A DNA stretch of 64,000 bases from Deltaproteobacteria bacterium (GTDB taxonomy: Bacteria; Desulfobacterota; DSM-4660; Desulfatiglandales; Desulfatiglandaceae): positions 62,001-126,000 of the forward strand of contig JAIPDI010000005.1 of NCBI GenBank assembly GCA_021737785.1. Direction: 5' to 3'. The notes beneath the pieces were generated by a model that had not been told where the DNA came from, ran no database searches, and saw nothing but the letters and a program-made list of their open reading frames with translations. The position numbers were made by a program, and so were the translations under genes. How positions within the stretch are numbered: the first letter of the stretch is position 1; each line of letters starts with the position of its first letter. Of this stretch, positions 30,925-60,539 are shown piece after piece.

Positions 30925-30995
30925 TCTCCGACTTCTGATCTCTGGCTTTCGGTGCCCGTCGGCCTTGCGCCTAACGCCTTACGCCTTGCGCCTTC
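30925..30995. repeat. GCCTTACGCCTTGCGCC-type repeat
   Basis: The gap after the DUF1847 gene holds GATTTCTGATCTCC-like units, then GGCCTTGCGCCTAACGCC and TTACGCCTTGCGCC words. The word tract runs into the 3' end of the radical SAM gene (its last codons GGRRKA lie inside GCCTTGCGCCTTCC), so the repeat appears to have set the present C-terminus. Confidence 0.65.
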
Positions 30996-32853
30996 CACCA
31001 CAAACCGCCAAGGCCAGGTATCGCTCCCCTTCGCAAAACATGAGCCGTTTATCTATCATCATTTGAAGGAAGGGCCTGATCCGGTCTTCGCCGAACCGCG
31101 GAAATCGGCCGACGATATCGGCCATGGACCGCTGGGTCCCGCAGAAGAGATAGATGGCACGGGAGGTGCCTTTCAAGCGATGGGTCATGGGCGCGTCATC
31201 CAGCCGACGCTCCCGAATAATGAGAAAGTCCTTGCCGTCCCTGAAAGAGAGTATCGGCTCACACCCCGGTTCCCGGTGCATGCGGTTATAAAAGGCATGC
31301 CATTCCGCCAGTTTTTCCCGGACCGGCGCCCACATCCGGTGTTGATGCCGGACCCCGCCATGGTATCCCTGCATCATAAACCGGAGTTTCCCCCGCACTT
31401 CCGCCGGAAACAGATATCGATAATCCGGATGATTTCCCCTGAGGCGGATTCCGTAACGGTCAGGATGACGCCAAAGGAGGCTTCCATAGCCGAGCCAGAG
31501 GTCGATCCCTTTCAGGGGCCGGAATGGAAACGCAAAGGAGAGGTGGTGCAGGGTCTCGGACACGTCCCGGGAATCGCTGGAAGGAAACCCGAGAATGAGA
31601 TTTCCGGTAAGATCCGGAAGGTGAGGGACCTCGCAGTTTTTCATCATTTCCAGATTGTCCATGGCCGTGGTCCCCTTGTGAAATTTTTTGAGGAGGCGGC
31701 TGCTCAGGGCCTCAATGCCCACCTGGACCTCCTGCATGCCGGCGGCTGCCATCGCCTCCAGCACGGCCCGGGGCGTCCTGGCCCGGATTTCCGAGAACAA
31801 CTGGAGGTCCATTCCCAGTCGCTGTATGGCCTGAAAGCGTCTTTCCAGCCTTCTGGCCGGGAGCAGATTATCCATAAAGTATATGGAGAGGACCTGGTGA
31901 CGGTTGACCAGGGTGTCTATCTCCAGGGCCGTTCTCCCATCGCTTTTTTCCCGATACCCGTGCCACTGAAGATTGAGGTTGCAGAAGGCGCAGCCCCCGC
32001 CCCCCTTTGAATCTCCCCCCTTGTTCCACCAGCAGCCCCGCGACATCTCCATCGGAAGTCTGGGCAGAAAGGCCTCTCCGGGGTCTGAAGATTCCAGATC
32101 GCGGAAGTAATCGGTATAATCGGGAATGGGGAGCTCATCCAGATCGGGGACCTGCTGAGGGCCATCCCAGGCCGGAAGCACGTCCCTGTGGATAAGACCG
32201 GGGATATGCGGAATCTGCGAGGCATCCCCTCGGCGCGCCATCCACGCCGTGAGGTGCAGCAGCGGCAGTTCCCCTTCGCCCTGAATGGCGTAATCAATAT
32301 CCGGAACGGCTCGAATAAGCGTTTCACCCTGGGCCCCGGCACATGCGGAGCCGCCCACCACGATCGGCAGCCGGGGTGCACGCCGCTTGATTTCCCGGAT
32401 AAAATAGAGTGAACTGGTCAATTGGGCCAGACAGATGGAAAACCCGGCAAAAAGATAGCTGTCCCATCGGTGTGCGTCTATCATGGCGAGGGAAGCGGCC
32501 TCGATCCGGCCGCAAAGGTCTTTGAAGTCCTTGGCTGCCAAACGGGGATCGCCGCGGATCTTCCGGTTCCAGAACCGGCCGATGGTTTCCATCCGGTCCG
32601 GGTAGAGGAGTGCGGCGTAGGGGGATTCCGCGATCCACGACCGTTCGGATACGGCCTGGTAGATGGAATAGCCCAGGTCCCGCGCGATCTTCAAATAGAC
32701 ATGACACGCATCTACCCGGATATGAGGAAGGCGTTCATTGAGAAACGCCTTGAGGGCTCCCAATTGAATGGACGGACGGTCAAATAACGGCCAGGGCGTG
32801 GACACCAGGGCAATCCGTTCTTTACGGGCCAGTCCCGGGTCAGCCTCATTCAC
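30979..32853 (-). CDS. B12-binding radical SAM enzyme, RiPP-maturation-like
   Basis: The 624-residue protein has a cobalamin-binding-like N-terminal half (VSTPWPLFDRPSIQLGALKAFL; GGSACAGAQGE near 168) and a radical SAM domain. The cluster motif is Cys274-x13-Cys288-x2-Cys291 within SRGCWW and CAFCNLNLQWHGYREKS. It strongly resembles RiPP maturation radical SAM protein 1, whose usual spacing is C-x7-C-x2-C. Here a Gly/Lys-rich insertion lengthens the loop. Such enzymes often methylate peptide precursors, but no precursor gene was found nearby. It overlaps the upstream gene by 8 bases, so the two are translationally coupled. The start is the ATG at 32853. Confidence 0.82.
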   Translation of the reverse strand: MNEADPGLARKERIALVSTPWPLFDRPSIQLGALKAFLNERLPHIRVDACHVYLKIARDLGYSIYQAVSERSWIAESPYAALLYPDRMETIGRFWNRKIRGDPRLAAKDFKDLCGRIEAASLAMIDAHRWDSYLFAGFSICLAQLTSSLYFIREIKRRAPRLPIVVGGSACAGAQGETLIRAVPDIDYAIQGEGELPLLHLTAWMARRGDASQIPHIPGLIHRDVLPAWDGPQQVPDLDELPIPDYTDYFRDLESSDPGEAFLPRLPMEMSRGCWWNKGGDSKGGGGCAFCNLNLQWHGYREKSDGRTALEIDTLVNRHQVLSIYFMDNLLPARRLERRFQAIQRLGMDLQLFSEIRARTPRAVLEAMAAAGMQEVQVGIEALSSRLLKKFHKGTTAMDNLEMMKNCEVPHLPDLTGNLILGFPSSDSRDVSETLHHLSFAFPFRPLKGIDLWLGYGSLLWRHPDRYGIRLRGNHPDYRYLFPAEVRGKLRFMMQGYHGGVRHQHRMWAPVREKLAEWHAFYNRMHREPGCEPILSFRDGKDFLIIRERRLDDAPMTHRLKGTSRAIYLFCGTQRSMADIVGRFPRFGEDRIRPFLQMMIDKRLMFCEGERYLALAVCGGRRKA

Positions 32854-34000
32854 GATCCTGTCTCCCGGGCGAATTGTCCTGTTTTTCCGTATGGTTCATT
32901 CGTTGTTTCTCGTGAATATCGACCGGGCACAGGCTCCGGGCATGCAGATAATCCTGAGGAAACCCCTTCCAGCACTCGTCTTCCGGACTCACCTCTGCGC
33001 CGGTTGCCCCCATGTTGGTGAATATCAGGACGTCGCCTTCCTGGATGACCGCCGGCGCATCCGGAAAGTCTATCCGGTTTCCCGGTCCCCCTGCCTGACC
33101 GATGATGGCCGTCGTTGAATTTGTTTTATTGCTATCGGATCTCGACAAATTGACAATCCCATGATAGATGCCGCGCCTCCCATTATGGATCGGGGATTGC
33201 ATATCCGCATTGATCCTGATCCAACGTCTTCCCTTCTCTTCGCCGGCCTCGACAACCCGGGTTATGAGGACACCGGCGCGGGCAAGCATTCCATGCGGCA
33301 GTTCCAGCCACAGGTTGAATCGGGGATAGGCATGGGCGACGGCATCCAGATACTCGTCTAATCCCGGGACATCCACCCATGCCTGTTCGCGATCCATTTC
33401 CTGTTCCATGCCGTTGCCCAGGATGAGGGTCGGTTTATCGGGAAAACGCACCAGTGCCTCGGTGAGGAAGGGGCGCATTTCATCCGGTCCTGACACAGGA
33501 GGGGCATCCGGCTTCAGGGAACAATAGAGTCCCCGGATAGAGGTCCCTGTGAACCCGATCTCTCTGTGATGGGCGCCTGCATCCCCGCGAATGAAAAATC
33601 TCCTGTCTTGAAAAAGATCCGGCCGCCGTCTGATTGCACTCAGATTGTACACCACCACGTGCACGCCGCAATCAAAGGCCCGCGCAAACTCCCGATCCTG
33701 GGCAGCGGCAGGAAAGAACACGATATGCTCGGGATCGAGTCGAGGGAAATCCCTCAAGAGGAGGTCCATCTCATTCCACGAGATGCACCGAAACCCCACG
33801 CCCTGCTCAACGGCCTTTCTCAGAATTTTTGGATGGGGATTCGCATGGACAGGATAGAAGAGGCGGTCAACGGCATCGATGGATAACAGATCGAACAGAA
33901 TCTCATTCAATGTCTCCTCATTGAAGACATAGAGGGGGGATCCCCGGCCGGCCATGGCCAGCAATTCATCCCTGCGGGACTGCCACCATTCAGTTTCCAT
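32846..34000 (-). CDS. PLP-dependent decarboxylase (LysA-like) homologue lacking the PLP lysine
   Basis: The 384-residue protein follows the fold-type III decarboxylase pattern (diaminopimelate/ornithine decarboxylase). PLYVFNEETL is at the start, LFYPVHANPHPKIL takes the place of FYAVKANxNPxIL, and ELPHGMLARAGVLITRV and NMGATGA take the places of the usual EPGR and NAGAY segments. The PLP-binding lysine is replaced by His52 (codon CAT at 33847-33845), and the usual CESxD active-site cysteine is not seen. It may be a pseudoenzyme or may have changed chemistry. The start is ATG 34000, or ATG 33955 with AGGGAT upstream; the promoter places the transcript start only about 3 bases before 34000, which favours 33955. 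It is coupled to the radical SAM gene. Confidence 0.8.
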   Translation of the reverse strand: METEWWQSRRDELLAMAGRGSPLYVFNEETLNEILFDLLSIDAVDRLFYPVHANPHPKILRKAVEQGVGFRCISWNEMDLLLRDFPRLDPEHIVFFPAAAQDREFARAFDCGVHVVVYNLSAIRRRPDLFQDRRFFIRGDAGAHHREIGFTGTSIRGLYCSLKPDAPPVSGPDEMRPFLTEALVRFPDKPTLILGNGMEQEMDREQAWVDVPGLDEYLDAVAHAYPRFNLWLELPHGMLARAGVLITRVVEAGEEKGRRWIRINADMQSPIHNGRRGIYHGIVNLSRSDSNKTNSTTAIIGQAGGPGNRIDFPDAPAVIQEGDVLIFTNMGATGAEVSPEDECWKGFPQDYLHARSLCPVDIHEKQRMNHTEKQDNSPGRQDRE

Positions 34001-34609: not shown

Positions 34610-36730
34610 GTGGTTTCTAAAAAGCCAGATAGAATCCATGTGAGCATCAGGGAAGCCCTCGGCCTTCTCATCCCCTATGTCAAGTCCCGGGTCCTGACCC
34701 AGGTGAGATCCATCTGGCTGATCATTTTGTATCTGATCTTTTTCCAAAAGTTTGTTCTCGGGATTTCCATCGCCGGTGCATCGGTTATCGCCGGTGGGAT
34801 GGTGCTGGTCGTCATCGGGCTGACCCTGTTCATGGAAGGGCTCATGCTGGGGCTTATGCCGCTGGGAGAACTGGTGGGGCTCAGGCTCCCCCAGCGTTCC
34901 GGGCTCCCGATGGTGTTGGGTTTTGCCCTGGTCCTCGGTTTCCTGGCCACTCTGGCCGAGCCTTCCATTAATGTCCTCCAGACGGCCGGGCTATCCGTCA
35001 GACCCTGGGATGCGCCCCTCCTGTTTCTCCTGCTCAATCTGTACGCCCCCTGGCTGGTGTATACCGTAGGCGCAGGGGTAGGGGTTGCCGTCTGCCTGGG
35101 AATGATCCGCTTCTACTACAGTTTTTCTCTCAAACCCTTCATCTATATCCTGGTGGGGGCGCTTTGCGCCTTCACGGTGTGGGCCTCCTTTGATCCGAAT
35201 CTCAGGCACATTGTGGGCCTGGCATGGGATTGCGGCGCGGTGACGACCGGGCCGGTCACCGTGCCCCTGGTGCTGGCCCTGGGGATCGGCATATCCCGGA
35301 TGTTTGCATCCTCGGAATCGGGGGCCACGGGCTTTGGGGTCGTGACCCTTGCATCCCTCCTTCCGGTGCTGGCGGTATTCATTCTGAGCGTATTCCTGCT
35401 CGGGATGGCGCCAGGTCCCGTTTCTGAGAGAGATTTCTTCAAGCCGGAAAACAGGACTCAGGCTGAACGCCTCCTCGGAGGGGAAGGCCGTCTGTTACGG
35501 TATGTCTTTGTCCAGGCTAACCCCGAAGGAAGACTTGCCTTTTTTGATAACAATTATGACAAGATGGCGCAGTTTTTCGAGGACCTGTATGAGGATGATG
35601 CAAGACGAAAGGCCGTGTTTGGAGATGATCCAGAGGCATTAAAACGCTGGGTCGCCCTCCATGGGACCGAAGGGCAGCAGCGCTTCATTTTCGGGAGTCA
35701 GGAGAACCTGGAAAAATATCTTCTAAGTATCCGGGGCTCGGCAGAAGAATTCCAGGCCGAAGAGCTTTTGAGGTACAATACCATCGCCGCAATCAAGGCC
35801 ATAGGGCTGTTGACCATCCCTCTTTTTGTCGTGCTCTTTTTTATCCTCCGCGACAGGCTGCCCCAGCCCGATGAGATCTTCCTGGGTCTGTTTCTCTGTA
35901 TCGCAGGGCTTGGCCTCTTCGGTATCGGGATCGAGGTCGGGCTGAACAGACTCGGGACCCAGATCGGCAGCAAACTCCCCTCCTCCTTCAAGGCCATTCA
36001 GCTTCCGGAAGAAAGGGAGGCCATCGCTGACTTTGATCCGGCCATGGTCCACACGGCCATCTCTTCGGACGGCCAGAAACATCTGTTCTTCTATGTCAAG
36101 AAAGGGAACCGTTACGTCGAAACCCCTTACCATCCTAAGGATTACGATCCTGAAACCGGCCGGTATCACCATATCCCAACCAAAGGGCCCCTTTTCGGGG
36201 ATCATTACAGTTTTGCAGGGATTGGTCTCGTCCTTTTCTTTGCCTTTGTCATGGGTTACGGCGCAACACTTGCCGAACCCGCCTTGAATGCCCTCGGCCT
36301 CACCGTGGAGGCATTGACTGCCGGGGCCTTCAGAAAGTCTCTTTTGATGCAGGCGGTGGCCGTGGGGGTTGGGGGAGGCATTACCTTGGGCGTGGCCAAG
36401 ATTATCTGGAATATCCCCCTTGCCTGGCTCCTGGTTCCCCCCTATCTCTTGCTGCTGCTGTTGACCCGATGGTCCACAGAGGAGTACGTAAACATTGCCT
36501 GGGACAGCGCCGGGGTCACGACAGGACCTATCACCGTGCCCCTTGTCCTCACCATGGGGCTAGGGATAAGCACCCAGGTAGGGGTGGTGGAGGGATTCGG
36601 GATTCTGGCTGCCGCCTCTGCCTGTCCCATCCTCAGCGTGCTTGGCCTGGGCCTCTATGCAGCGAAAAAGAGAGAGGCTGCATTGAGGGAGTCCATCGCT
36701 GTCGCACCGACTGGAGAAAGCCGGATATGA
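34610..36730 (+). CDS. DUF1538 integral membrane protein, two repeats
   Basis: The 706-residue protein holds two DUF1538 repeats. Each has the family marks: ATLAEPSINVL and ATLAEPALNAL after glycine-rich helices, then AWDCGAVTTGPVTVPLVLALGIGIS and AWDSAGVTTGPITVPLVLTMGLGIS. Each repeat has about six membrane helices. A hydrophilic part of about 150 residues lies between them (residues 275-405), with another soluble stretch at 460-535. The family is predicted to be a permease; its substrate is unknown. The start is GTG 34610, with AAGGAG 6 bases upstream. It overlaps the PII-like gene by 4 bases (ATGA), a pairing that suggests the PII-like protein controls it. Confidence 0.88.
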   Translation: MVSKKPDRIHVSIREALGLLIPYVKSRVLTQVRSIWLIILYLIFFQKFVLGISIAGASVIAGGMVLVVIGLTLFMEGLMLGLMPLGELVGLRLPQRSGLPMVLGFALVLGFLATLAEPSINVLQTAGLSVRPWDAPLLFLLLNLYAPWLVYTVGAGVGVAVCLGMIRFYYSFSLKPFIYILVGALCAFTVWASFDPNLRHIVGLAWDCGAVTTGPVTVPLVLALGIGISRMFASSESGATGFGVVTLASLLPVLAVFILSVFLLGMAPGPVSERDFFKPENRTQAERLLGGEGRLLRYVFVQANPEGRLAFFDNNYDKMAQFFEDLYEDDARRKAVFGDDPEALKRWVALHGTEGQQRFIFGSQENLEKYLLSIRGSAEEFQAEELLRYNTIAAIKAIGLLTIPLFVVLFFILRDRLPQPDEIFLGLFLCIAGLGLFGIGIEVGLNRLGTQIGSKLPSSFKAIQLPEEREAIADFDPAMVHTAISSDGQKHLFFYVKKGNRYVETPYHPKDYDPETGRYHHIPTKGPLFGDHYSFAGIGLVLFFAFVMGYGATLAEPALNALGLTVEALTAGAFRKSLLMQAVAVGVGGGITLGVAKIIWNIPLAWLLVPPYLLLLLLTRWSTEEYVNIAWDSAGVTTGPITVPLVLTMGLGISTQVGVVEGFGILAAASACPILSVLGLGLYAAKKREAALRESIAVAPTGESRI

Positions 36731-38013: not shown

Positions 38014-41000
38014 CTAGAAATAATCCCCCACCAGCACAAAGGCCCCCCAGTAGCCGGGGTGGGGATACCGCTGCTTCACATGCTGCATGGCCTTCTGGAG
38101 GCTTTCGGCTGTAGGCCTTGTCTTGTATTCCCGGTAGAACTGCTTGACCAGGATGGCGGTGGAGATGTCGCTGACCCGCCAGAGGCTGGAGAGGACCGCA
38201 TGGGTCCCGGCATAGAGGAAGGCCCGGTTCATGCCGATCACGTCATCCCCCTGGGTCACCCTTCCGAGCCCGGTCTGACAGGCGCTCAGGACCACGAGCC
38301 CGGCCCGGATATCGAGGCCGAAGATCTCGGAGGTCTTCAAATCGCCGTCGTCCTTTTCGTCTCTGGCCAGTTTGACGGCCGAAAAGAGCGGGTTGACGGG
38401 ATCGAACTCCCCGTGGGAGGCCAGATGGATGATCCCGAATTCCGATATGTGGCGCACCACCCACCCCTCGGTGGCCCGTTTTCCGGTGAGGACCGTGATG
38501 TCGGGGAAGTTCCAGCCGATAGCCCCCACCTCTCTCTCGGCAAAGGGGAGGTCCAGGGCAGGGTTTTCCAGGTCAGGATTGCCCACTGCCAGGACCCTGG
38601 GATTCTTTTCCTCGGCCCGCCGCTCCAGGGTATACCGGAGCACGCTGGCGCTGGGGACGGAGAAGAGGGGGAACCGGTCCGCCAGATACGCTTTTCCGTC
38701 AAAGAGGGCGGCAAAGGAGAGGTGGTGCAGGGCATCATGGGGCACGATCCCCACGGCCTGAACGCCCTCCAGTCCCGCTGCGGGCCGGGACAGGAGCCAT
38801 GCGTGGAGTTGTTGTGAAACCGCTTCCGCAGGTTCCAGGTTCTGAAGGATCCGCCGGTAATGGAGGACGGTCTCCCTCAGGGTCTTGCGGCCGATGGGGG
38901 TGCGGAACAGGTCGGCCCGGTCCCGCGTGATCCGCCAGCAGAGGACCTGGTCGGGGACCACATAGTAGACCAGGACCGCCACGCCGGGCTCCAGCAGATT
39001 GCGGAACTCACGGAGCGTCAGGGGCAGGACCGAGACGATGCTGGCCAGCTGCGGGTTCTTCATCTGGATCTCCAGCATGAGGTCCCGGTGATCGTCCCTG
39101 GCCCGTTTCAGGGCCGTGGCATAGACCTCCCGCGCACTCTCCTCCCGGGCCTGGGCCAGGAGGGTCTCATACTCGCCGATCCGGGACTTCAGGGCCTTCT
39201 CCCGATCATACATTTTTTGATTGACGGTCCCGTGCAGGCTGAGTCGCTGGTTTCCCAAGAGGTCGATGAGGTTCCGGGCCCGGGAGCGCTCGGCCACCTC
39301 AAAGGCCTCTGTGTCTTTCCCCATATCCACCAACAGGCCCACCAGGGTCTCATAGACATCCATCTTGTTTCCGATGAATCCGTCTCTCAGCTGCTCCAGC
39401 CTGATCTCAGACCGCACCCCTTCGATGACCTCCACGGCCCGGGAAAGGAGGCCCCTGGCCCCTTCCCGGTCTCCCTCGCGGATCCGGAGTCTGGCCAGTC
39501 CGTAGAGGGCCCGCCATTCGGTCTCACGGAGGGCCATGCCCCTCGAAAGTTCCAGTGCCTCGCCATAGACCGTTTCGGCCTTTGAAGTGCGGTCCAATTG
39601 CGTCAGGGCATCGCCGTACGCGGCCAGGATCTTGGCCTGGTTGATCCGGTTGCCGATCTGGGCCGCCGTGACAAGGGCCTCCTCAAACAGGGGGACGGCC
39701 GCCCCCGGCTTTCCCATGCGCACATAGGTCATGGCCTGGTTCTTGAGGTCATAGGCAACGGCCCATTTGGAGCGGATCTTTCGGTCGATCTGCAAGGCCT
39801 GGTCCAGTATGTGGAGGGCCTTCTCATACTCCCCCTGATCGCGATAGACCAGTCCCATGTTGTTGAGGGTGGTGGCCGTCTCGTCCTGCCGGGCCTTCAA
39901 TTTCTTTGCCAGTTTCAGGGCGTCTGCCAGTTCCCGCAGGGCCCGATCGTGATCGCCCAGGGTCCACCAGATGAGCCCTGCGGTATTGAGGGCGTTGACC
40001 TGCTCCAGGTCCCACTGGTTTTCCCGGGCCTTCACCAGCACCTCCCTCTGCCCCTCGAAGGCATGCTGGTATCGGGCCTGAAACCAGTCATTGTTGGCCT
40101 GCTCCATCCGGATATTGGCCCTGATGCGCTGATCCGCCTCTCCCGGTTCCAGGAGGGTCAGGGCCTTTTGGTAGCGATCCGAGGCATCCCCGAAATTCCC
40201 GAGAAGACGATCGCACCGGCCCGTGTCCAACAGGGCCTGGGCCATCCAGGCCTTTTGTTCCAGTGCCTCATAGAGGTCATAGGCCGCCATATAGTGCTGT
40301 TTGGCCCCGGCATATTGACTCAGCCGCAGATCATATATCCGGCCCATGCGCATGTGCTGCCGGGCCAGGAGTTCGTCCTTGTCCATGTCCCTGCTGAGGG
40401 CGGCCGCCGACTGGAACTGCTCCAATGCCCGATCATAGTCGGTGGCGTTCTCCAGGACCACGCCCAGGTCGGTGAGGGCCGCCACCTGGGGGGCGCCCAG
40501 CTCCAGATCGGCCATGATCTCGGCCCCTTGCTCCAGGACCGGGATGGCCTGATCGTATTTCTCCATGCGGGCCCGGACCAGGCCCAGCCGGATCAGGGCA
40601 TCCGCATGTTCCGGGGTATCGGGTTTTTCCCGGACCATCATCCCGGCCAGGGCCTGTGCATAGGTCTCTGCGTCCCTGTACCGGCCCGCGGCAAAAGCGC
40701 TTTCCCGTGCATAGGTGTAGAGCTGGGGGATATAGGATTTCAAATCCTTTGTCTGAAGGGCCACATTCAAGGCCTTGTCAAAAGACACCATGGCCCTGAG
40801 GGGCGCTTTTCCCTTGAATGCCTGGACCCCGTCCGTGACATATTCCTTGAAGCGCTTTTTGGCCAGCGCCAGGGCCTCGGCCTCTGTCATGCCCCAGTAG
40901 CCCAAAGAGATCCATTCCCCTCTGCCGCCGGTCTCCTGCTGGGCAGCCATCAGCGCCTCAAAGGCAGGGGCCTCGGCATATGCCGCAAAAAAAGGGCCTG

Positions 41001-44000
41001 TCATCGTCAGGTCGGACGGGCCTTGCCGGGGCATCAGGAGGGTGGGCACGTCCAGCATGGCGAAGAGGTGGCCCAGTGAATAGGCCTGCTCAACAGAGGC
41101 CCCCGGCAAAAGGGCCAGCGAGACATCCGGGACCCGGCCCGAGAGACGGGAGAGGGGAAAGGTCCGGCCCTTGTCCAGTCCCATGGCCGGATAGGGAGAC
41201 GGGATCTCTCCCGGTCTCGTGGGGACTGAATTGGCCGTGAACAAGGGGCCTCCCAGAAGGAGTCCCTGGGCCCCGGGCAGGGCCTCCATGATCTGGTTTT
41301 GGGTGGCGCCGGCCCCAAGGGAGGTGATCTCAAAGGGGAGGGGGATGGCGGATTCGAAGGAGAGGGCGATGATGCGACGGCGGAAGGGCCTTCGGTTTTC
41401 CACGGATCGCACCAGGTGCGTGGCGTTCAGGGCCAGGGGCCGGTTAAGGGATGCGGGAAGCATCGACAAATCCTCACACACCCAAACGGTTTTGCCCGCC
41501 TCGAGCCCCTGAATCGGATCGTCCAGGTTTATTTCCTGAACCGCGATGTCGTCCGGGGTGATCCTGAAGGCCTGTGCGGGTCCGTCTCCGGCCCCCTTGA
41601 AGATCCGCATACAGGTCCATCCGGCCGGCAGATTCTCCATGAGATCGATGGCCTCCACCGGGTCCGGCCCGAACATGGCCGCAAGACCCCGGCAGCCTTC
41701 CCTGGCCGCCCGGGTCCTTAGCTTTTTTAACCTTTCCTCATAGACCGACAGGGTGTCGTGGTATTCCTTCCTCAGGGCATCGGAAGGGGAACCAGGGTCG
41801 TGGGTGACAAGGGTCTCTGCCAGGTCCTGGGCCTTCACGGCCAGACCCAGGAGGATCATCACCTGTTCCTGAAGGGCCTCGGATGGGGCCAGACCCACCT
41901 GGACCGGGACCTGATCGTTTTGCTCCCCCATGGCCTTCCTGAGGAGTTGCCGTTCCTGATCGATCCGTTGCCGGAGATGGGGCCGGTCTTCTTTTGGAGC
42001 GGTCTCGAGCCCTGTTTCCAGTCGCTCCAAGGCCATGAGCCTCGGGGCCACCCGATTGAGCCACGCCCTTTCAGGTCCTGTGAGAGGGTTTATGATCAAG
42101 GGTCTCAGGCAATGGAACCGCTCCATGTCGGATATCTTTTCCAGGAAATTGAAGGCCTCTTCGATCTTCCCCTCCCGGATGAGATCAGCGACCATGGGCG
42201 AAAAGGCATGCACCATCTCCCCCGGGCCGCAACCGGTTTCAAAGAGGGAAACACGTTTTAGCGCCGACAGGGCCGTCTTCAGGTCTCCCAGTCCGGCCAG
42301 ACCCCGCCACTGGTACGCGGGGAGGATTCCCCTCCGGGAGATCTCAAGGGCCTTGCCCAGATGCGCCTGCTGTTCCACGTCCTCTTGAAGGTCTCCGGCC
42401 ACTCGTGCCATGTTGAGGTGGAGGGCCGCCTCAAGGGCCAGGGTCTTTCTCCCCTTGGGGCCTTTGACGCGGTCCAGCCAGGCGAGCCCCTCGGAGAAAT
42501 GGGCCCCGGCCCGTGTCAGGGCGTGGGTGCGGCGGACCGCTTCTTGGGGCGAGGTCGCGTCCCTACCAGGGATCTTTGCCAGGAGGTAGACCCCGAGGGT
42601 GTTGTGGTATTCAGGGGTGGTCAGGGGATCCAGGACCTCGGAAAAGGTCCTGAGGAGCCGGACCGTCCGGCGGTCCGCGATCATGAGATCGGCCCGGCAG
42701 CGGTCATACTGGGGATCCCGGGCCGGTATCCGGGCCAGTGCGACGGCCATGTTTTCCACGTTCAGCGCGGCGCTGACCGGGTTTTTGAGTTCCAGGGCTA
42801 TGAGGGCGGACCGGTGAAATCGATGGAAGGCCTCTGTAGTCTGTTGCAGGGCATGGCTCAACTGTCCGCCCCGGTGAGAGAGGAGGGATAGACCGTACAG
42901 GTCTCCCTCGGCCACCGGCTGTTCCGCGGGGTAGGCCGCCAGTTGCGCGGCCAGCGCCTCTTCTGCTGAAGACAAGACCCCCAGCTCGGTCTCGATGCGG
43001 GAGAGGAAGGCCTGGGCCAGCCGCCGCTCCTGCTCAGGGCTGAACCCGTATACGGCCCTGGATGCGTCTGTCTTGTCAAAGGCCACGTCCAGGGAAAGGT
43101 TCATGAGGGCCTGGCCGGGCCGGGATGCGGTGCCCTTCTTGATTTCCGCCGCGCCGTGCTCCTCAAGCAGCCCCGGTACCTGTTCAAAGTCTCGGGCCGC
43201 CTCTTGAAGCATCTCGATTCGGGCCGCTCCGGTGAGATCCCCTGCGGTCATGTAGGCGCTGTAGGCAACCGAGCGCCGGTTGGCCGCCAGGTTCCGGACC
43301 TGGCCCAGGGCCTTGTTGAGCGCAAAGGCCGCTTCAAAGGCGGCCCGGGCCTCAGGCCATCGTTCCGCCTCCTGAAAGGCCAGGCCGAGACGGTCCAGCA
43401 TCTCGGCCTTGAGCTGGACCATTGACATGGGAAACCCGAGGGCCTCCCTTGCTTTAAGGAGCATGTAGCGGAGGTTCTGGACGGTTTCCTCGGGCTTGCC
43501 CTGGATCAGGGGCGCGATCTCGGCAATGAGCGCTTCCTGATCCTTTAGGATCGGTTCCAGTGCATCCCTGTAACCCTGCCACCGGGGGTCGGGCGGGGGG
43601 CCGAAGGTCTGGGTCGTGGCCTGAAAGAGCCGCTGTTGGATGTCGGCCTGTCTCTGGGCCAGTGCCTCGGCGGCCTGGGCCGTATCGGGTCGTTTCAGGG
43701 CCGGGGTCAGGACCCGGTCGCGGACGGCGTCGTTGATCTTTCCCATGACCTTTGAAGGGCGTTTGGGGTCGATCCGTTGATCGATGAGGGCGATGGCCTT
43801 CTGAAAGGCCGTGATGGGCCGCTCAGGGTCCCGCACCTGGAAGGCCGCGGCCCCTAAGCGGCGGTAAAAGAGGATTTCCGTGTCCGGTTGATCAAAGGGA
43901 ACATCCGCATCGAGGCGTTCCAGGTAGCGCTCCAGGGCCTTTCCATACTGGCCCAGCAGAAAATGGATATTCCCCAGGTTGAGGGCCAGATCGGCCCCGT

Positions 44001-46611
44001 TACGGGGGTCCTCTTCGGGCCGGTTGAGGAAATAGGCCTTCTGGTACGCTTCGAGGGCCTTTTCCAGATACCCCGGCTGGTGGTGAACCGTCTCCATCAC
44101 CTCAAAGATATACCCCAGGGTCTGGTGAAAATAGGCGGTCTGTCCCTCCCGCTGGATAGCCTGTTGGATCAGGCCGCGGGCCTCATCGAGGGGCGTCTTT
44201 CCATCCAGATAGGTAAGACAAAGCCCGGCGGCGTAGAGGCGGACCGGGTCATCCGGGGCCTGTTGCAGCCGGCTGCGATAGAGGGTGAGGGTGGATCCCA
44301 TCTCCTGTTTGGCGGCCGCGCACTTGATATACCCCCGGTGTCCCCTGATCAGGGAGGGGTCTTCGCGGATCAGTTCCGCATAGATGGCCTGGGCCCCCGG
44401 GACCTCGCCCAGCAAAAAGAGATAATCGGCCGCGGCCAGGGATTTCTGCACATAGGCGGCGCGGGCCAGGCGGTAGAGCCGGTCTTCGTCGGGTCGAAGG
44501 TCCATTTCCGTTGCATAGAGATCGAGGGCCTCCCGGAACAGCTCCTCTTGATACAGGATCTCGGCCAGGGCGAGCCGGGCCGCGGCCGTCTGGGTGGCGG
44601 TCTCTCCTGACTGGGGAAACCCGGTCAGGACCTGCCGATACCAGGTCTTGGCCTGTCTCCAGTCTCCCCGGTCAAAGGCGATATCCCCCATCCGGTTGAA
44701 GGCCCCCATGGCCGTCTTGGGAAGGGTCGTTCGATAGTCGCCGGCCAGCTTGTTGAGGGCCTCGATCCTCGCCTCGTCCGTTGTGAGGGCCGGATCCGAC
44801 AGGGTGGTGTCGATCATCGCCGCCACGGATCGGTCGGCCCAGAGGGATTCAGGGGCCTCGTCGATGACCCTCTGAAATGCGGGCATGACCTGGCCGGGCC
44901 TCCCGATACGGCCGGTTATCCGGGCCTGGAGAAAAAGGGCCTCTCCTTTGGTGGAGTTCCCGATGTCCGTCATGTGAGCCACCCGGTCCAGGAGCTTCAG
45001 GGCACGAAGGAGCGATTCCGGATCCGTGCTGAGGTCGCTCAAGAGCCGGGCCTCCTCCAGAAGACTGCGGGCCCGAATACGGGCCAGGTCCTGATCGGAG
45101 AGCCCGGGGCTTGGAAGGTCTCCGGGTTTCTCCGGGGACCCGATGCGGTCAAGGGCCTGCTGAACGGCCGCCGCTTTTGCCGTATCTGTTACCGCGGCCT
45201 CCCATGCCTTTCGCCCCCGTATCCCCTCCAGACGGATGCGGGCAAGGGCGGCCTCGGGACCGGACGTATTGAAGGAAGAGATCACCAGAGAATAGGCCCG
45301 GTCTGCATCATCGGGCCGCCCCATCCGTTGACAGACCTTTCCCATCTCATAGGCGGCCTGTGCCCTGATCCTGTCCTGGGCCGGAAACCCCTCCATGGCC
45401 TTGTAACAGGCCAGAACGGTCAGACGGTCGTCCCCGGGTCGGCGGTCGGCAAAGGTTCGGGCAAGGGCCATCTGGGCCTTTGCATCCTTCTGAAGGGGGA
45501 TCATCCCGTCCATTGGCAGACGCCGGAGATTGGAGGTCCCTCGAAGGCTCGACAGGAAAAAGATCCCGGAAGGCGCAACCATGGGCTGATAGGCTGAAAA
45601 GGCCTCAGAGGTCAGGGGATAGACCAGCGGGTTTGAACCTGTGACCTCCACTCGACAGATGACGGCAGGGTCTTCGGGCGTCACTTTTCGGTCGCCGGTG
45701 GCATCCACGGCAAACCGGGAAAAATAGATGTACCGGCCGTCGGGGGACCAGGATGGATAGAGGTCCAGGGCCGGGCCTCGGGTCACAGGCGTCACGCGGC
45801 CGCTGGGGAGATCGAGCACAAAGATATCCCCGCCCGGATCATGCCGGCCCGAGACAAAGGCGCAGGCGTGGCCGTCCGGAGAGACCGCGGGGAAGGCCCC
45901 GTCGGCCCCCGTATCCAACAGCTGGGGTGAGGGCGAGGCCTCCCTCAGGTCAAGGGCAGCCAGGCGTCGCCCTGTCTCTCCGGTCCGGGAAAGATGAAAA
46001 TAGAGGGTGTTTCCATCGGGTGAAAAGGCGGGGGCCCCGTCCTGGGTCTCCCGTCCTGTGAGCCGCTTGGGGGGGCCATCTCCCTGGTCCGGGATCAGGA
46101 GATAGATGTCTCCCTTGGCATCGTGGCCCGTGGCCGCAAAGGCGATCTTCTGACCGTCTTGGGAGATGGCAGGGGACGTGATTCTCCCCACCCCCTGAAC
46201 CCGCCTTTGCGGCAGTTCAACGGCAGACGGCCCCAGGTTTCTGAGCCAGAGGGAGGATTGGCCGTTCTCTTCCGTGACATAGACCAGCCTTTGCCCGTTG
46301 CCGGACAGGGCCGCATAGAGGACCGGATCGGCTTCAAAGGTGATCTGGACCGGCCGGTGGATGGGCAGGAGCCTCGGGCCGCTCCGTTGGGTCCCCTGCT
46401 GCGCAAAAGGGTCGGACAGGGGCGGACCCGCAGGGGGTTTCGTTTCACCCGGCAAGCGGGAAAATCCCGGAATCGTGCAGGCGGACAAAAGAACGATGAC
46501 CAGGAGCAGTATCCCTGTCAGAAAACATGAGTTGTGAATTGAGGGATTGAGGGATTGAGGGATTTGCGCCTCATGCCTCGAGCCCGGCGCCTTTATTGCT
46601 TCACCGTCCAC
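38014..46611 (-). CDS. Giant lipoprotein with beta-propeller, TPR and CHAT protease domains
   Basis: This 2865-residue protein is the largest in the window. A lipoprotein signal (FLTGILLLVIVLLSAC) places the lipid-linked cysteine at residue 45, so the chain is exported and membrane anchored. Residues 80-370 look like a TolB/WD40-type propeller (repeated SPDGHACAF, SWSPDGRYIYFSR, FSPDGNTLYFHL). A long TPR region follows to about 2450, with regular units such as ATTLNNMGLVYRDQGEYEKAL. The C-terminus is a CHAT caspase-like domain with the His2733/Cys2778 dyad (HLASHGEF, VLSACQTG). The start is the GTG at 46611, overlapping the preceding gene; no ATG is available in frame before the signal. Confidence 0.88.
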   Translation of the reverse strand: MDGEAIKAPGSRHEAQIPQSLNPSIHNSCFLTGILLLVIVLLSACTIPGFSRLPGETKPPAGPPLSDPFAQQGTQRSGPRLLPIHRPVQITFEADPVLYAALSGNGQRLVYVTEENGQSSLWLRNLGPSAVELPQRRVQGVGRITSPAISQDGQKIAFAATGHDAKGDIYLLIPDQGDGPPKRLTGRETQDGAPAFSPDGNTLYFHLSRTGETGRRLAALDLREASPSPQLLDTGADGAFPAVSPDGHACAFVSGRHDPGGDIFVLDLPSGRVTPVTRGPALDLYPSWSPDGRYIYFSRFAVDATGDRKVTPEDPAVICRVEVTGSNPLVYPLTSEAFSAYQPMVAPSGIFFLSSLRGTSNLRRLPMDGMIPLQKDAKAQMALARTFADRRPGDDRLTVLACYKAMEGFPAQDRIRAQAAYEMGKVCQRMGRPDDADRAYSLVISSFNTSGPEAALARIRLEGIRGRKAWEAAVTDTAKAAAVQQALDRIGSPEKPGDLPSPGLSDQDLARIRARSLLEEARLLSDLSTDPESLLRALKLLDRVAHMTDIGNSTKGEALFLQARITGRIGRPGQVMPAFQRVIDEAPESLWADRSVAAMIDTTLSDPALTTDEARIEALNKLAGDYRTTLPKTAMGAFNRMGDIAFDRGDWRQAKTWYRQVLTGFPQSGETATQTAAARLALAEILYQEELFREALDLYATEMDLRPDEDRLYRLARAAYVQKSLAAADYLFLLGEVPGAQAIYAELIREDPSLIRGHRGYIKCAAAKQEMGSTLTLYRSRLQQAPDDPVRLYAAGLCLTYLDGKTPLDEARGLIQQAIQREGQTAYFHQTLGYIFEVMETVHHQPGYLEKALEAYQKAYFLNRPEEDPRNGADLALNLGNIHFLLGQYGKALERYLERLDADVPFDQPDTEILFYRRLGAAAFQVRDPERPITAFQKAIALIDQRIDPKRPSKVMGKINDAVRDRVLTPALKRPDTAQAAEALAQRQADIQQRLFQATTQTFGPPPDPRWQGYRDALEPILKDQEALIAEIAPLIQGKPEETVQNLRYMLLKAREALGFPMSMVQLKAEMLDRLGLAFQEAERWPEARAAFEAAFALNKALGQVRNLAANRRSVAYSAYMTAGDLTGAARIEMLQEAARDFEQVPGLLEEHGAAEIKKGTASRPGQALMNLSLDVAFDKTDASRAVYGFSPEQERRLAQAFLSRIETELGVLSSAEEALAAQLAAYPAEQPVAEGDLYGLSLLSHRGGQLSHALQQTTEAFHRFHRSALIALELKNPVSAALNVENMAVALARIPARDPQYDRCRADLMIADRRTVRLLRTFSEVLDPLTTPEYHNTLGVYLLAKIPGRDATSPQEAVRRTHALTRAGAHFSEGLAWLDRVKGPKGRKTLALEAALHLNMARVAGDLQEDVEQQAHLGKALEISRRGILPAYQWRGLAGLGDLKTALSALKRVSLFETGCGPGEMVHAFSPMVADLIREGKIEEAFNFLEKISDMERFHCLRPLIINPLTGPERAWLNRVAPRLMALERLETGLETAPKEDRPHLRQRIDQERQLLRKAMGEQNDQVPVQVGLAPSEALQEQVMILLGLAVKAQDLAETLVTHDPGSPSDALRKEYHDTLSVYEERLKKLRTRAAREGCRGLAAMFGPDPVEAIDLMENLPAGWTCMRIFKGAGDGPAQAFRITPDDIAVQEINLDDPIQGLEAGKTVWVCEDLSMLPASLNRPLALNATHLVRSVENRRPFRRRIIALSFESAIPLPFEITSLGAGATQNQIMEALPGAQGLLLGGPLFTANSVPTRPGEIPSPYPAMGLDKGRTFPLSRLSGRVPDVSLALLPGASVEQAYSLGHLFAMLDVPTLLMPRQGPSDLTMTGPFFAAYAEAPAFEALMAAQQETGGRGEWISLGYWGMTEAEALALAKKRFKEYVTDGVQAFKGKAPLRAMVSFDKALNVALQTKDLKSYIPQLYTYARESAFAAGRYRDAETYAQALAGMMVREKPDTPEHADALIRLGLVRARMEKYDQAIPVLEQGAEIMADLELGAPQVAALTDLGVVLENATDYDRALEQFQSAAALSRDMDKDELLARQHMRMGRIYDLRLSQYAGAKQHYMAAYDLYEALEQKAWMAQALLDTGRCDRLLGNFGDASDRYQKALTLLEPGEADQRIRANIRMEQANNDWFQARYQHAFEGQREVLVKARENQWDLEQVNALNTAGLIWWTLGDHDRALRELADALKLAKKLKARQDETATTLNNMGLVYRDQGEYEKALHILDQALQIDRKIRSKWAVAYDLKNQAMTYVRMGKPGAAVPLFEEALVTAAQIGNRINQAKILAAYGDALTQLDRTSKAETVYGEALELSRGMALRETEWRALYGLARLRIREGDREGARGLLSRAVEVIEGVRSEIRLEQLRDGFIGNKMDVYETLVGLLVDMGKDTEAFEVAERSRARNLIDLLGNQRLSLHGTVNQKMYDREKALKSRIGEYETLLAQAREESAREVYATALKRARDDHRDLMLEIQMKNPQLASIVSVLPLTLREFRNLLEPGVAVLVYYVVPDQVLCWRITRDRADLFRTPIGRKTLRETVLHYRRILQNLEPAEAVSQQLHAWLLSRPAAGLEGVQAVGIVPHDALHHLSFAALFDGKAYLADRFPLFSVPSASVLRYTLERRAEEKNPRVLAVGNPDLENPALDLPFAEREVGAIGWNFPDITVLTGKRATEGWVVRHISEFGIIHLASHGEFDPVNPLFSAVKLARDEKDDGDLKTSEIFGLDIRAGLVVLSACQTGLGRVTQGDDVIGMNRAFLYAGTHAVLSSLWRVSDISTAILVKQFYREYKTRPTAESLQKAMQHVKQRYPHPGYWGAFVLVGDYF

Positions 46612-47180: not shown

Positions 47181-47194
47181 GATGGGGTCTCCAG

Positions 47195-47400
47195 GGTTAG
47201 GCGTTAGGCTTCAGGCGAAGGGGTAATGAGCTGAAAGCTCAAAGCTCAAAGCTGAAAGCTGAAAGCTCGAGGGGTAAAGCAGTTATTGGTTGTCGATCGA
47301 CATCATAGCGCATGGCGACTCGTGGATGGCGTATGGCGTTTTTGAGCCCAAGAAACACAATAGAGCAGCCTATCCAGCATCCAGTATCCAGTATCCAGCA
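47195..47400. repeat. Word-like repeats between YdbH-like and DUF1318 genes
   Basis: The gap holds GCGTTAGGCTTCAGGCG, then GAGCTGAAAGCTCAAAGC with several copies, then GGCGACTCGTGGATGGCG, and finally ATCCAGCATCCAGTATCC units touching the stop codon of the next gene. No ynbE-like ORF was found here. Confidence 0.75.
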
Positions 47401-55247: not shown

Positions 55248-57305
55248 ATGAGGTTTACGTTACGGCTGAAGATTCTTCTGATGGTTGGCATTATCACGCT
55301 CTCGTCCCTCCTGGGCTATATCGTGTTGACCTATAATGCCCGGGTGATCGGGAACAGACTTCAGGTTGAAACCGAAGACCATATCAAGGCGATTGTGGGG
55401 AAAAATGCCGGGGAGATCGAATCCGCCATGCTCCTTATGGAGAGAACCGCGGATGCCCTTGCCACTACAGGAGAGGCCTTTTATGCGATTCATAAGGCCA
55501 CGGCACAGGATATCACGGAACAAATCAAGGGATACCTTATCAACACCTTCAAGAAGGTCCCGAAGGCGATCGGAGGCGGTCTCTGGTACGAACCCCATGC
55601 CCTGTTTGAAGAAAGAGAACGTTTCGGGGCCTATGTTTATCGGGAAAACGACCAGGTTTTCTTCACCTGGGATCTGAATACGGAGGCGTATGACTATCAT
55701 CGACAGGCATGGTATCTCCTTGCCATCCCGGAGGACTGGAACCGGTCCCAGCAAAGACCTTCCAGGATTTACTGGACAGATCCCTATTTTGACGAGGCCG
55801 CAACCAAGGCCCTCATGATTACGGTGGATGCCCTGATGCATGACCTGGAGGGTAAAGTGATAGGGCTCTCTACGGTTGACTTCAGTCTGGAGGGATTGAA
55901 AGACATGGTGGCCAGGATGACCGTCACCCCCAATGCCTTGCCATTTGCCGTGGACGTGTCCAGCGGTCTCCTCATCTCTTTTCCTTCTGATCCCTCCAAG
56001 GTCTTGAAGAATATCGCCGATCTCGGCTGGGGAGAAAAGATCGAGGAGATCAAGAACGTCCGTCCGGGAGAGGTGATCGCCACCCTGGCCACACTCCAAG
56101 GGAAGGAGTTTTTCCTGGTGTATACGGTCTCTTCCACCGGGACCGCCCTCGGCATCCTGGCGCCCCATGACGAACTCTACGCCCATATCAACGAACTTAA
56201 TCGGGCCAATATGGTCACGTCACTCATCATTATCTCGATCCAGGTGGTTCTTTATCTGCTCATTGCATTCTTCATGGTGAGACGTATCTGCAATCCCATC
56301 AGCAGATTGACCGATGTGGCCCAGGAGATTGCAGCAGGCAATCTCGCCGGTGCGTCGGGGTCTCTGGCCGCAATCGAGGCCAAAAACCGATCAGACAAGG
56401 ATGAAACCGGACAGCTGTTGGCCGCGTTCCAGGGAATGAATAGAGACCTCACCGCCCTTTTCGGACAGGTCCAGCGATCCGGAACCCAGGTCAGTTCATC
56501 CTCGGCACAGATCGCCGCCTCCTCAAAGCAGATGGAGGCCACTGTCAGCGAGCAGGCCGCGGCCACGCATCAGGTCAGCGTTTCCTCCAAGCAGATTTCC
56601 GCCACCGCAAGCACGCTGGCGAACACCGTCAATGAGGTGACAACGTCTGCGACTGAGACGGCAGGTCTGGCCGAAGCGGGTCAGAAGGGCCTGGAAGGGA
56701 TGGAACAATCGATGCAAGGCGTGCTCAAGGGATCTGAATCGGTTTCGGCAAAACTGGAGGAAATCAAAGAAAACACATTAAATATCAGTACGATTGTATC
56801 TACCATGACAAGGGTCGCGGATCAGACCAACCTTCTCTCACTCAATGCGGCGATCGAGGCTGAAAAGGCCGGGGAATACGGCCTTGGATTCTCTGTGGTG
56901 GCAAGGGAAATCCGCAGGTTGGCGGACCAGACCTCCGTAGCCGTGCTGGACATCGAGGATATGGTCAAGAGGATGGAGGCATCCGTATCGGACGGGGCCG
57001 CTGAAATGGAAACCTTTTCCGAAGACGTGCGTGTCGCGGTCAGCGACATCAACAAGATCGGAAGGCAATTGGATGGGATCATGGAAAGGGTCCGGTCTCT
57101 CCCCCCCCGTTTCGAATCGGTCAATGAAGGGATGGAAACCCAATCCCGGAGCGCAGGCCGAATCAGCGAGACCATGGAACAGTTGAACCTGACGGCCCAG
57201 CATACACTGAAGGCGCTGAGGGAATTCAATCTTTCGGCCGAGTACCTGAGGGACGCGGCCCAGATCCTCCAAGATGCGGTTGCCCGCTTCAGGGTAACCG
57301 AATGA
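55248..57305 (+). CDS. Methyl-accepting chemotaxis protein with dCache sensor
   Basis: The 685-residue receptor has a first membrane helix (ILLMVGIITLSSLLGYIVL), then a periplasmic double-Cache domain (GGGLWYEPHALFEERERFGAYVY, then RIYWTDPYFDEAATKALMITV). A second helix (MVTSLIIISIQVVLYLLIAFFMV) follows. HAMP begins with RRICNPISRLTDVAQEIAAGN. The signalling tip is NLLSLNAAIEAEKAGEYGLG with EIRRLADQTSVAV. This tip pattern is close to WspA-type receptors. It is the first of three receptors in a row; the second starts 19 bases later. The ATG is preceded by GGAGGCTGGGGC. Confidence 0.93.
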   Translation: MRFTLRLKILLMVGIITLSSLLGYIVLTYNARVIGNRLQVETEDHIKAIVGKNAGEIESAMLLMERTADALATTGEAFYAIHKATAQDITEQIKGYLINTFKKVPKAIGGGLWYEPHALFEERERFGAYVYRENDQVFFTWDLNTEAYDYHRQAWYLLAIPEDWNRSQQRPSRIYWTDPYFDEAATKALMITVDALMHDLEGKVIGLSTVDFSLEGLKDMVARMTVTPNALPFAVDVSSGLLISFPSDPSKVLKNIADLGWGEKIEEIKNVRPGEVIATLATLQGKEFFLVYTVSSTGTALGILAPHDELYAHINELNRANMVTSLIIISIQVVLYLLIAFFMVRRICNPISRLTDVAQEIAAGNLAGASGSLAAIEAKNRSDKDETGQLLAAFQGMNRDLTALFGQVQRSGTQVSSSSAQIAASSKQMEATVSEQAAATHQVSVSSKQISATASTLANTVNEVTTSATETAGLAEAGQKGLEGMEQSMQGVLKGSESVSAKLEEIKENTLNISTIVSTMTRVADQTNLLSLNAAIEAEKAGEYGLGFSVVAREIRRLADQTSVAVLDIEDMVKRMEASVSDGAAEMETFSEDVRVAVSDINKIGRQLDGIMERVRSLPPRFESVNEGMETQSRSAGRISETMEQLNLTAQHTLKALREFNLSAEYLRDAAQILQDAVARFRVTE

Positions 57306-57324
57306 CGTGTGGAAGGGAAACGAC

Positions 57325-59532
57325 ATGAGATTAATGCTCAGGCACAAGGTCATCGGCCTCCCGGTCCTGGCGGCCATCCTGCCGGTCCTGGCCATGTTTG
57401 TTTTGACATTCATGGAAAAAAGCAGCGTCACACACAAAATCGAAGGGGAACTGGATCTTCTTGCACGTGACAGCATGAAAGGGATTGCGATAGCCATCAG
57501 GGATACCTGCCAGGTCACGAGCCATATGATACAGAAGGATGTGGACCGGCGCCTCGAGGATGGGGATTCCTTTTTTTCGGCCCTCGGAGGGCTCTCCTTG
57601 GGTTTTGAAGAGGTCTCATGGACCGCAGTGAATCAGTTTACGGGTGAAGAAAAAAAAGTGTCTCTTCCCAAAATGCTTATCGACGGGGTCACCTGGCTGG
57701 GACAAAATGAAAGATTGGATGAATCGACCCCTGTTATTGACGATGCCAAGATGAAATTCGGAGGAGACTATGCCATCTTTCAGCGGATGAATGAAAAGGG
57801 AGATATGATTCAGGTGGCAACCACCCTGCCCACTCAGGATGGGCATCGCGCCACCGGAAGCTACATTCCCGCAACGACCCAGGGCATTTCGGTCCCCGTG
57901 GTTTCAACCGTGCTTCAGGGGAAGACATACAAGGGCCTGGCTGAAATAAACAAGCGGTGGTATGTCTCCGGTTTCAAGCCGATCAGCGATAAAACCGGGA
58001 AAATTATAGGGATGCTGTTTACAGGGATACCCGATAAGATCCCCGACAGCCTGCGACAGGTCATTTTGAACATGAAGGTGGGGAAGACGGGGTATGTATA
58101 TGTCCTCGGCGGCCGATTCCCCCACCACAGGGGACATTATATCATTTCAAAGGACGGCGAACGGGACGGCGAGAATATCTGGGATTCCAAAGACGCAAAC
58201 GGCCGTTATTATATTCAGGATATCATAAATAAGGCGACGGCGCTGAAAGGAAACGAGGTGGTATTTGAGCGGTATCCATGGCGGAACATCGGGGAGGACA
58301 AAGACAGATGGAAGGTTGTCGCCGTCACCTATTTTGAACCCTGGGACTGGGTAATCGGGGCCGGCGCATACGAAGAGGATTATTATGATGCGAGGCAGAA
58401 GGTTGAAGCCTCCATGTCTCACATGCTGTGGGTGATGATCCTGAGCGGACTTGCCGTGCTTATTCCCATCGTCGGAATAGCCCTGTTTTTCGGGAACAGG
58501 ATCACCAGACGCCTCATCCAGATCACGTCCATATCAAGGAAAATCGCCAAGGGGGATCTCTCGGCGGCCGCTGCCGCAGTCAGATCCCTGGCGGCTGCAG
58601 ATGATCCTGACGGCAGGCGCAGGACTGACGATGAAACAGGACACCTCCTCAGTTCCATCAAGACGATGACGGAAAATCTCAATGCCCTGGTGGGGCAGGT
58701 CCAGCGTTCCGGGATTCAGGTCACCTCTTCTTCCACGCAACTGGCGGCGACGGCCAAGGAACAGGAGACCACCATGGCCAATCAGGTGGCATCCACCAAT
58801 AAGGTGGTCAGGTCCATAAAAGAGATCTCCGAGGTTGCCGCCCGGTTGGTAGAGACCATGGAGCAGGTCGCCTCCAAGTCTCAGGATACTGCCGGTTTTG
58901 CGACCAAGGGTCAGACAGACCTGGCCCGCATGGAGGCGGCCATGCAGCATATGGAGACGGCCTCCAGGTCTATTTCAGGCCGATTGGAGACCATCAATGA
59001 AAAGGCGGAGAACATCACCAACGTGGTCACCACCATTACCAAGGTCGCGGATCAGACCAATCTCCTCTCCCTCAATGCGGCCATCGAAGCGGAAAAGGCC
59101 GGAGAGTATGGAAGGGGATTCAACGTGGTGGCCCGGGAGATACGGAGATTAGCGGATCAGACCGCGGTGGCCACCCTCGACATCGACAAGATGGTCCAGG
59201 AGATGCAATCGGCCGTATCCGCCGGCGTCATGGAGATGGACAAGTTCATCGCCGAAGTCAATCGCAGTGCGGAAGATGTGGGAAGGATCAGCGTCCAGTT
59301 GGCCCGGATCATCGAACAGGTCCAGGCCCTGTCTCCTGATTTCGAAAATGTCAATGTGGCCATGGGAAGACAGTCTGAGAACGCCCAAAAGATCAATAGC
59401 TCCATAACGAGTCTAAGCGAAGAGATACAGATGGTGACCGAATCATTGCACGAGTCGTTTTCCGCTATTGAGCAACTGAATGATGCGGCCAGAGGGCTCC
59501 AAAACCAGGTATCGCGATTCAAGGTGAGCTGA
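57325..59532 (+). CDS. Methyl-accepting chemotaxis protein with Cache_3-Cache_2 sensor
   Basis: From ATG 57325 the receptor has 735 residues; GTG 57307 is a weaker alternative. A first helix (VIGLPVLAAILPVLAMFVLTF) leads to a large Cache 3/Cache 2 fusion domain (KGLAEINKRWYVSGFKPISD, GKTGYVYVLGG, DRWKVVAVTYFEPWDWVIGAGAYE). A second helix (VMILSGLAVLIPIVGIALFFG), HAMP and an MCP signalling domain follow. From about 58690 the DNA is nearly identical to the third receptor (from about 61350), so the C-terminal halves arose by recent duplication or gene conversion. Ligand unknown. Confidence 0.93.
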   Translation: MRLMLRHKVIGLPVLAAILPVLAMFVLTFMEKSSVTHKIEGELDLLARDSMKGIAIAIRDTCQVTSHMIQKDVDRRLEDGDSFFSALGGLSLGFEEVSWTAVNQFTGEEKKVSLPKMLIDGVTWLGQNERLDESTPVIDDAKMKFGGDYAIFQRMNEKGDMIQVATTLPTQDGHRATGSYIPATTQGISVPVVSTVLQGKTYKGLAEINKRWYVSGFKPISDKTGKIIGMLFTGIPDKIPDSLRQVILNMKVGKTGYVYVLGGRFPHHRGHYIISKDGERDGENIWDSKDANGRYYIQDIINKATALKGNEVVFERYPWRNIGEDKDRWKVVAVTYFEPWDWVIGAGAYEEDYYDARQKVEASMSHMLWVMILSGLAVLIPIVGIALFFGNRITRRLIQITSISRKIAKGDLSAAAAAVRSLAAADDPDGRRRTDDETGHLLSSIKTMTENLNALVGQVQRSGIQVTSSSTQLAATAKEQETTMANQVASTNKVVRSIKEISEVAARLVETMEQVASKSQDTAGFATKGQTDLARMEAAMQHMETASRSISGRLETINEKAENITNVVTTITKVADQTNLLSLNAAIEAEKAGEYGRGFNVVAREIRRLADQTAVATLDIDKMVQEMQSAVSAGVMEMDKFIAEVNRSAEDVGRISVQLARIIEQVQALSPDFENVNVAMGRQSENAQKINSSITSLSEEIQMVTESLHESFSAIEQLNDAARGLQNQVSRFKVS

Positions 59533-59549
59533 GCCGGCACAGCCGGGAC

Positions 59550-59680: not shown

Positions 59681-59685
59681 GTCGA

Positions 59686-60501: not shown

Positions 60502-60539
60502 CTCGAAATTGAAATCCGGAATTCGACGGAGCGATGGTC

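Follow-up and report, generated by a model that had tools for sequence, protein, structure and literature searches.

The 64,000-nucleotide stretch of DNA analysed here (the window) encodes on its minus strand a giant TPR-CHAT protein (P0001) with an export signal. Its C-terminus folds, as judged from profile matches, into a CHAT domain with an intact His/Cys dyad, while structural modelling identifies a second, catalytically dead copy of the fold further towards the N-terminus. The gene follows those of an AsmA-like protein and a DUF1318 lipoprotein, an order which recurs across the phylum and is accompanied by co-inheritance. With somewhat better than even confidence, the giant protein can be regarded as an exported separase/caspase-type protease, perhaps with a sensor function, of an outer-membrane homeostasis gene set.

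The reading frame opens with a GTG at position 46611 (Table 1), and the plus strand of the same interval is riddled with stops. Frame and length are both kept in near-full-length orthologues with 50–63% identity and likewise in distant orthologues with 39–46% identity, which excludes a chance frame and confirms the 2,865-residue chain proposed by a first-pass annotation of the sequence alone. An AGGAG motif is situated 8–9 nt 5' of the GTG, which overlaps the stop codon of the DUF1318 gene. This overlapping start is preserved in close orthologues, either as GGAGGACGG followed by ATG or GTG or as an ATGA overlap, suggesting that both genes are probably translationally coupled and that the signal sequence belongs to the giant protein. 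A start further downstream, by which the lipobox would be removed, had been raised as a possibility and is at odds with the preserved overlap. A short tandem repeat (aatccctc, ~46535–46565) lies within the coding sequence of the n-region of the signal, and another (ggatactggatactgg) is located at ~47370–47400.

Table 1. Positions of the giant TPR-CHAT gene, its domains and the two upstream genes in the window.
Feature	Position	Strand	Basis
Giant TPR-CHAT protein, 2,865 codons	38014..46611	minus	Profiles and orthologues
Signal region, lipobox LSAC, Cys45 as would-be +1 residue	46474..46611	minus	Sequence inspection; orthologous starts overlap DUF1318 stop
TolB/PD40-like propeller core, residues ~86–300	45712..46356	minus	PF07676, E 3.5e-26; TIGR02800, 85 bits
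First recognisable TPR stretch, residues ~634–946	43774..44712	minus	TPR families and solved TPR chains
Dead CHAT/separase domain (modelled), residues ~1640–1920	40852..41694	minus	AF2, Foldseek (E 6e-7 to 7e-6 for DdvA and Csx29), VIA-align, hhalign, orthologue columns
Second TPR stretch, residues ~1962–2398	39418..40728	minus	TPR_12 and other TPR families
CHAT domain with intact dyad His2733/Cys2778, residues 2597–2863	38020..38823	minus	PF12770; Csx29 alignment
DUF1318 (YdbL-like domain) lipoprotein, 195 aa	46593..47180	minus	PF07027, 34.8 bits, above cut-off of 27
AsmA-like (DUF748/YhdP-type) protein, 1,223 aa	47401..51072	minus	Profile match

The chain comprises a lipobox cysteine, a PD40/TolB propeller and an intact His/Cys dyad, as the first-pass annotation had recognised. 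The propeller remains well below the cut-off of the TolB equivalog TIGR02800 (343 bits). The more than 1,500 residues of TPR-like repeats also proposed are found in part: two TPR stretches can be recognised, residues 946–1440 give no profile match, residues 1444–1640 are largely helical in AF2 models, and the following segment is the degenerate CHAT domain, which had been missed. The C-terminal CHAT domain matches PF12770 with 195.6 bits (E 1.6e-57), far above the curated cut-off of 24. Its residues His2733 and Cys2778, invariant in 18 and 17 orthologues, respectively, distant ones included, align to His615 and Cys658 of Csx29, a pair whose mutation abolishes Csx30 cleavage (PMC10028731). The domain is a predicted protease, which likely performs limited proteolysis.

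A first hint at the nature of the middle domain was given by the orthologue alignment, in which residues 1640–1920 are collinear with the CHAT domain. Profile-profile comparison with diverse CHATs (hhalign), which had been weak with few sequences (E 0.005), gave E 2.1e-6 and a probability of 89%, collinear over 283 columns, and reversed and shuffled controls in local mode gave E 0.07–0.9; values from global mode were set aside, since one shuffled control produced a one-column artefact with E 1.3e-23. Modelling with AF2 from 20 orthologues (pLDDT 86.8, pTM 0.81) replaced a poor model of residues 1440–1960 from nine sequences (pLDDT 61), the top nine PDB matches of which were all Craspase TPR-CHAT. 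With the 20-sequence model, Foldseek returned DdvA and the Craspase TPR-CHAT (Csx29) as first matches (E 6e-7 to 1e-4). Superposition with VIA-align gave a Z-score of 16.4 for the separase protease domain (ctSPD; rmsd 3.2 over 234 residues) and of 15.1 for Csx29. Pfam did not recognise the domain in 9 of 9 orthologues checked, and a PDB sequence search with its profile returned TPRs alone. Its catalytic columns hold neither His nor Cys, both residues being absent from all 20 orthologues. From the profile comparison and the model, it can be concluded that residues 1640–1920 are a catalytically dead CHAT/separase domain, and that dead and intact separase-like domains are naturally paired within one chain.

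Size, the many repeats and a CHAT copy devoid of both catalytic residues would also suit a non-proteolytic scaffold, in which the propeller, the repeats and both CHAT folds merely hold an envelope complex together. Such a role is rather unlikely, since the C-terminal dyad is invariant in 17–18 orthologues, with both residues gone from the middle copy in 20 of 20, and since the C-terminal half of the protein is more conserved than the middle region (mean column identity of 75% versus 58% in the orthologue alignment). Considerably less probable still is an envelope stress sensor which steers transcription like the transmembrane anti-sigma factor DdvA. It would account for the similarity of the dead domain to this protein (8rw5, Foldseek rank 1 with E 6e-7; VIA-align Z-score of 14.0), but no cytoplasmic domain precedes the signal of the giant protein and no sigma-factor gene is conserved next to it.

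Inspection and hydropathy reveal a hydrophobic export signal in every giant with a readable N-terminus. A lipobox-like Cys is present in nine Desulfobacterales giants including that of the window, with L024 being weak among these, and inspection found none in L008, L009 or the more distant L124 and L126–L131; the status of L132 is ambiguous. Distant orthologues as well as two close ones carry a plain Sec-type signal. Since the lipobox is confined to part of the Desulfobacterales and the signal is seen at all readable N-termini, the sequences suggest that export is the conserved property of the giant proteins and the lipid anchor a lineage-specific one. The anchoring in the envelope proposed by the first-pass annotation is therefore retained with respect to export by a predicted signal, but not with respect to the lipid anchor as its key feature. 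Due to the export signal, an envelope location is predicted, either in the periplasm or at the outer membrane.

An exported CHAT-TPR protein had been considered unusual, a view that does not hold for this phylum. By inspection, six shorter TPR-CHAT relatives in the order possess an export signal and one a membrane anchor, and across the phylum a signal is found in 13 of 13 readable N-termini. Together, 19 of the 19 readable shorter TPR-CHATs of Desulfobacterota carry a signal, many with a lipobox, and one further protein is membrane-anchored. CHATs of other architecture in the order look cytoplasmic, among them the other CHAT of the window's genome (G000:C39, L002:490-3765), in which a class III nucleotidyl cyclase is joined to CHAT, TPRs and a CsgG/LpoB-like part; G043, G071 and G075 encode cyclase-CHAT proteins similar to it.

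Twelve of the 46 family genomes encode an orthologue of the giant protein, full-length or as fragments, as do a single genome from a different family of the order and at least ten further genomes among a 395-genome sample of the phylum; the length of the orthologues holds at ~2,700–2,900 residues across Desulfobacterota. The window shares the gene order AsmA–DUF1318–giant CHAT with 13 other loci, and three more, where the contig ends, show DUF1318–giant CHAT; both genes precede the giant in every locus with a contig reaching that far. In L034 and L036 the AsmA and DUF1318 genes are separated by only ~12–15 bases. Both a giant CHAT (2,693-codon frame) and DUF1318 are present in G144, on the separate contigs C28 and C87. 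A comparison of the flanks of all loci showed no other window gene to be conserved beside the giant.

Cys17 of the DUF1318 lipoprotein is invariant in 10 sequences. The AsmA-like protein displays a DUF748/YhdP/AsmA match at its N-terminus, with 38 bits for DUF748 (PF05359; cut-off 50) in the window and 52.5 in the L036 orthologue, and no YnbE ORF lies between the two genes (47181–47400). Of the lipid transport pair of YdbH/DUF1318 type described in the first-pass annotation, the linkage of AsmA and DUF1318 stands and extends across the phylum, but the specific assignment to YdbH finds no support.

The survey of neighbours adds a part which the first-pass annotation lacked: in ten other loci the giant CHAT gene is followed by genes for two exported proteins, one of SH3b type (SH3_3) and the other an M48 protease. 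The latter exceeds the cut-off of the Peptidase_M48 profile, and its best NCBIfam match is BepA (NF052400), at 90 bits far below the cut-off of 570; like the AsmA-like protein with respect to E. coli YdbH/YhdP, it is only a distant relative of E. coli BepA. SH3b and M48 are fused in one chain in L126 (L126:4225-5472) and L127, with a HExxH motif that looks degenerate in L127. The same giant–SH3b–M48 order is found in G022, on a contig with a CHAT fragment. In the window's genome the SH3b/M48 pair is located on another contig (G000:C23:49942-51387), and it likewise lies away from the giant in G039, G040 and G043.

Ten of the 46 family genomes and 11 of the 395 phylum genomes contain DUF1318 of the window type, and each of them also encodes the giant; the same is true for all nine of the 46 family genomes with SH3b. 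A giant without detected SH3b is seen in genus g8 (G016, G017) and in G026. Fisher tests of co-occurrence with the giant, in which phylogeny is ignored, gave 1.6e-8 for DUF1318 and P ~2e-7 for SH3b, and the underlying counts, derived from MAGs, are open to incomplete assemblies and shared ancestry.

Elsewhere in the window, a DUF1538 protein (34610–36730) matches both the UmpA and the UmpB antiporter subunit within one chain, a RiPP-type B12 radical SAM methyltransferase (rSAM_ocin_1, over cut-off) adjoins a LysA-like decarboxylase (30979–34000), and a run of methyl-accepting-chemotaxis-like genes occupies 55248–62192 on the plus strand. In L042, a decarboxylase 33% identical to the LysA-like one is situated ~2.4 kb from a short TPR-CHAT.

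The CHAT-TPR architecture, the dyad matching that of Csx29 and the patchy distribution could point to a cytoplasmic-type immune or cell-death effector resembling Craspase or a gasdermin-linked CHAT, which kills its own cell on infection. The only PADLOC matches of the giant, weak ones to models of TPR and BovA, agree with this, but export signals throughout the giants, envelope proteins as conserved partners and a gene order kept across the phylum leave it a slim chance. Neither a Cas nor a gasdermin gene was found among the scanned neighbours, a subset of the ORFs. PADLOC also matched the cardiolipin synthase and the cysteine desulfurase encoded in the flanks, which is accounted for by those housekeeping families. 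With scanned neighbours devoid of Cas and PADLOC matches either weak or explained in this way, a role in defence fits poorly. Membership of Craspase is rejected, the giant scoring 41 bits against a cut-off of 300 for the Csx29 family (NF041237) and Cas genes being absent among the scanned neighbours. Least probable is a protease that is secreted or displayed at the surface to gain nutrients or to antagonise neighbour cells, for which export, size and repeats would be suitable, as the giant is co-inherited with AsmA-like and BepA-like genes and not with secretion or immunity genes.

The preferred reading of the giant as an upkeep protease follows from its linkage to AsmA-clan and BepA-like partners, and the idea of binding-driven switching from Csx29. 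AsmA-clan proteins of E. coli function in outer-membrane lipid homeostasis (PMC8593681), and BepA, which acts on LptD and BamA, in assembly and degradation of outer-membrane proteins (PMC8423444, PMC7950410). Csx29 is activated allosterically, makes a single cut and contains both a pseudo-caspase and an active one (PMC10028731). The gene set would consist of the AsmA-like protein, the DUF1318 lipoprotein and the giant CHAT, plus SH3b and the BepA-like M48 protease encoded elsewhere in the window's genome. In such a set, the propeller, a putative sensor, and the helical repeats might dock on envelope partners or clients, with the dead CHAT as a module for binding or regulation that has no catalytic part. 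Binding, relayed via the second TPR stretch, could then re-orient His2733 and Cys2778, whereupon the C-terminal CHAT would cleave an envelope protein in a limited manner, perhaps one of the partners from the gene set. Proteolysis, allosteric switching, the substrate and a role in lipid or outer-membrane protein upkeep are all proposed here on this comparative basis. More tentatively, the giant may cut its own partner (the AsmA-like, SH3b or M48 protein) and so adjust lipid or outer-membrane protein assembly. If true, this would represent a previously undescribed pathway by which proteolysis controls the envelope of Desulfobacterota, with a separase/caspase-type signalling protease outside the cytoplasm.

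There are precedents for CHAT proteases, for TPR-CHATs and, with DdvA, for a membrane-linked protein that has a CHAT fold, and no description of the giant's architecture together with its gene set was found in the literature searched. To our knowledge, the characterised bacterial CHAT proteases have intracellular roles in immunity or development. In the phylum studied here, an entire branch of TPR-CHATs appears to be exported, and gene order and co-inheritance connect its largest member with the upkeep of lipids and proteins of the outer membrane, which would place limited proteolysis of the caspase/separase type in bacterial envelope homeostasis and provides a defined gene set for testing.

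Among the closest known systems, Csx29 of Craspase (type III-E CRISPR) shares the TPRs ahead of CHAT, the aligned His/Cys dyad, the pseudo-caspase plus active caspase and the likely limited proteolysis. However, Csx29 has 751 residues and is bound to Cas7-11, whereas the giant has no Cas genes among its scanned neighbours, carries an export signal and a propeller, and contains a further dead CHAT which is complete, spanning both parts and situated ~900 residues before the intact CHAT. In eukaryotic separase, too, a double caspase-like domain is preceded by a long helical stretch, and the separase protease domain superposes on the dead domain, but the giant is bacterial and exported, with the dead copy ~900 residues ahead of the intact one. 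DdvA (PDB 8rot, 8rw5) is also a membrane-linked bacterial protein with a CHAT fold; in contrast to it, the giant is without an anti-sigma domain or sigma-factor gene and keeps the dyad of its C-terminal CHAT. An AsmA-like protein followed by a DUF1318 protein is a feature shared with E. coli YdbH-YnbE-YdbL and other AsmA-clan proteins, while in the giant's locus YnbE is missing, DUF1318 is a 195-residue lipoprotein, the giant CHAT comes next and the AsmA match is to DUF748/YhdP. The M48 partner resembles the exported M48 proteases BepA, LoiP and YcaL of E. coli, but lacks the TPR part of BepA and remains under its cut-off. With TolB, finally, the giant shares a PD40 propeller in an exported protein, at a score under the TolB cut-off.
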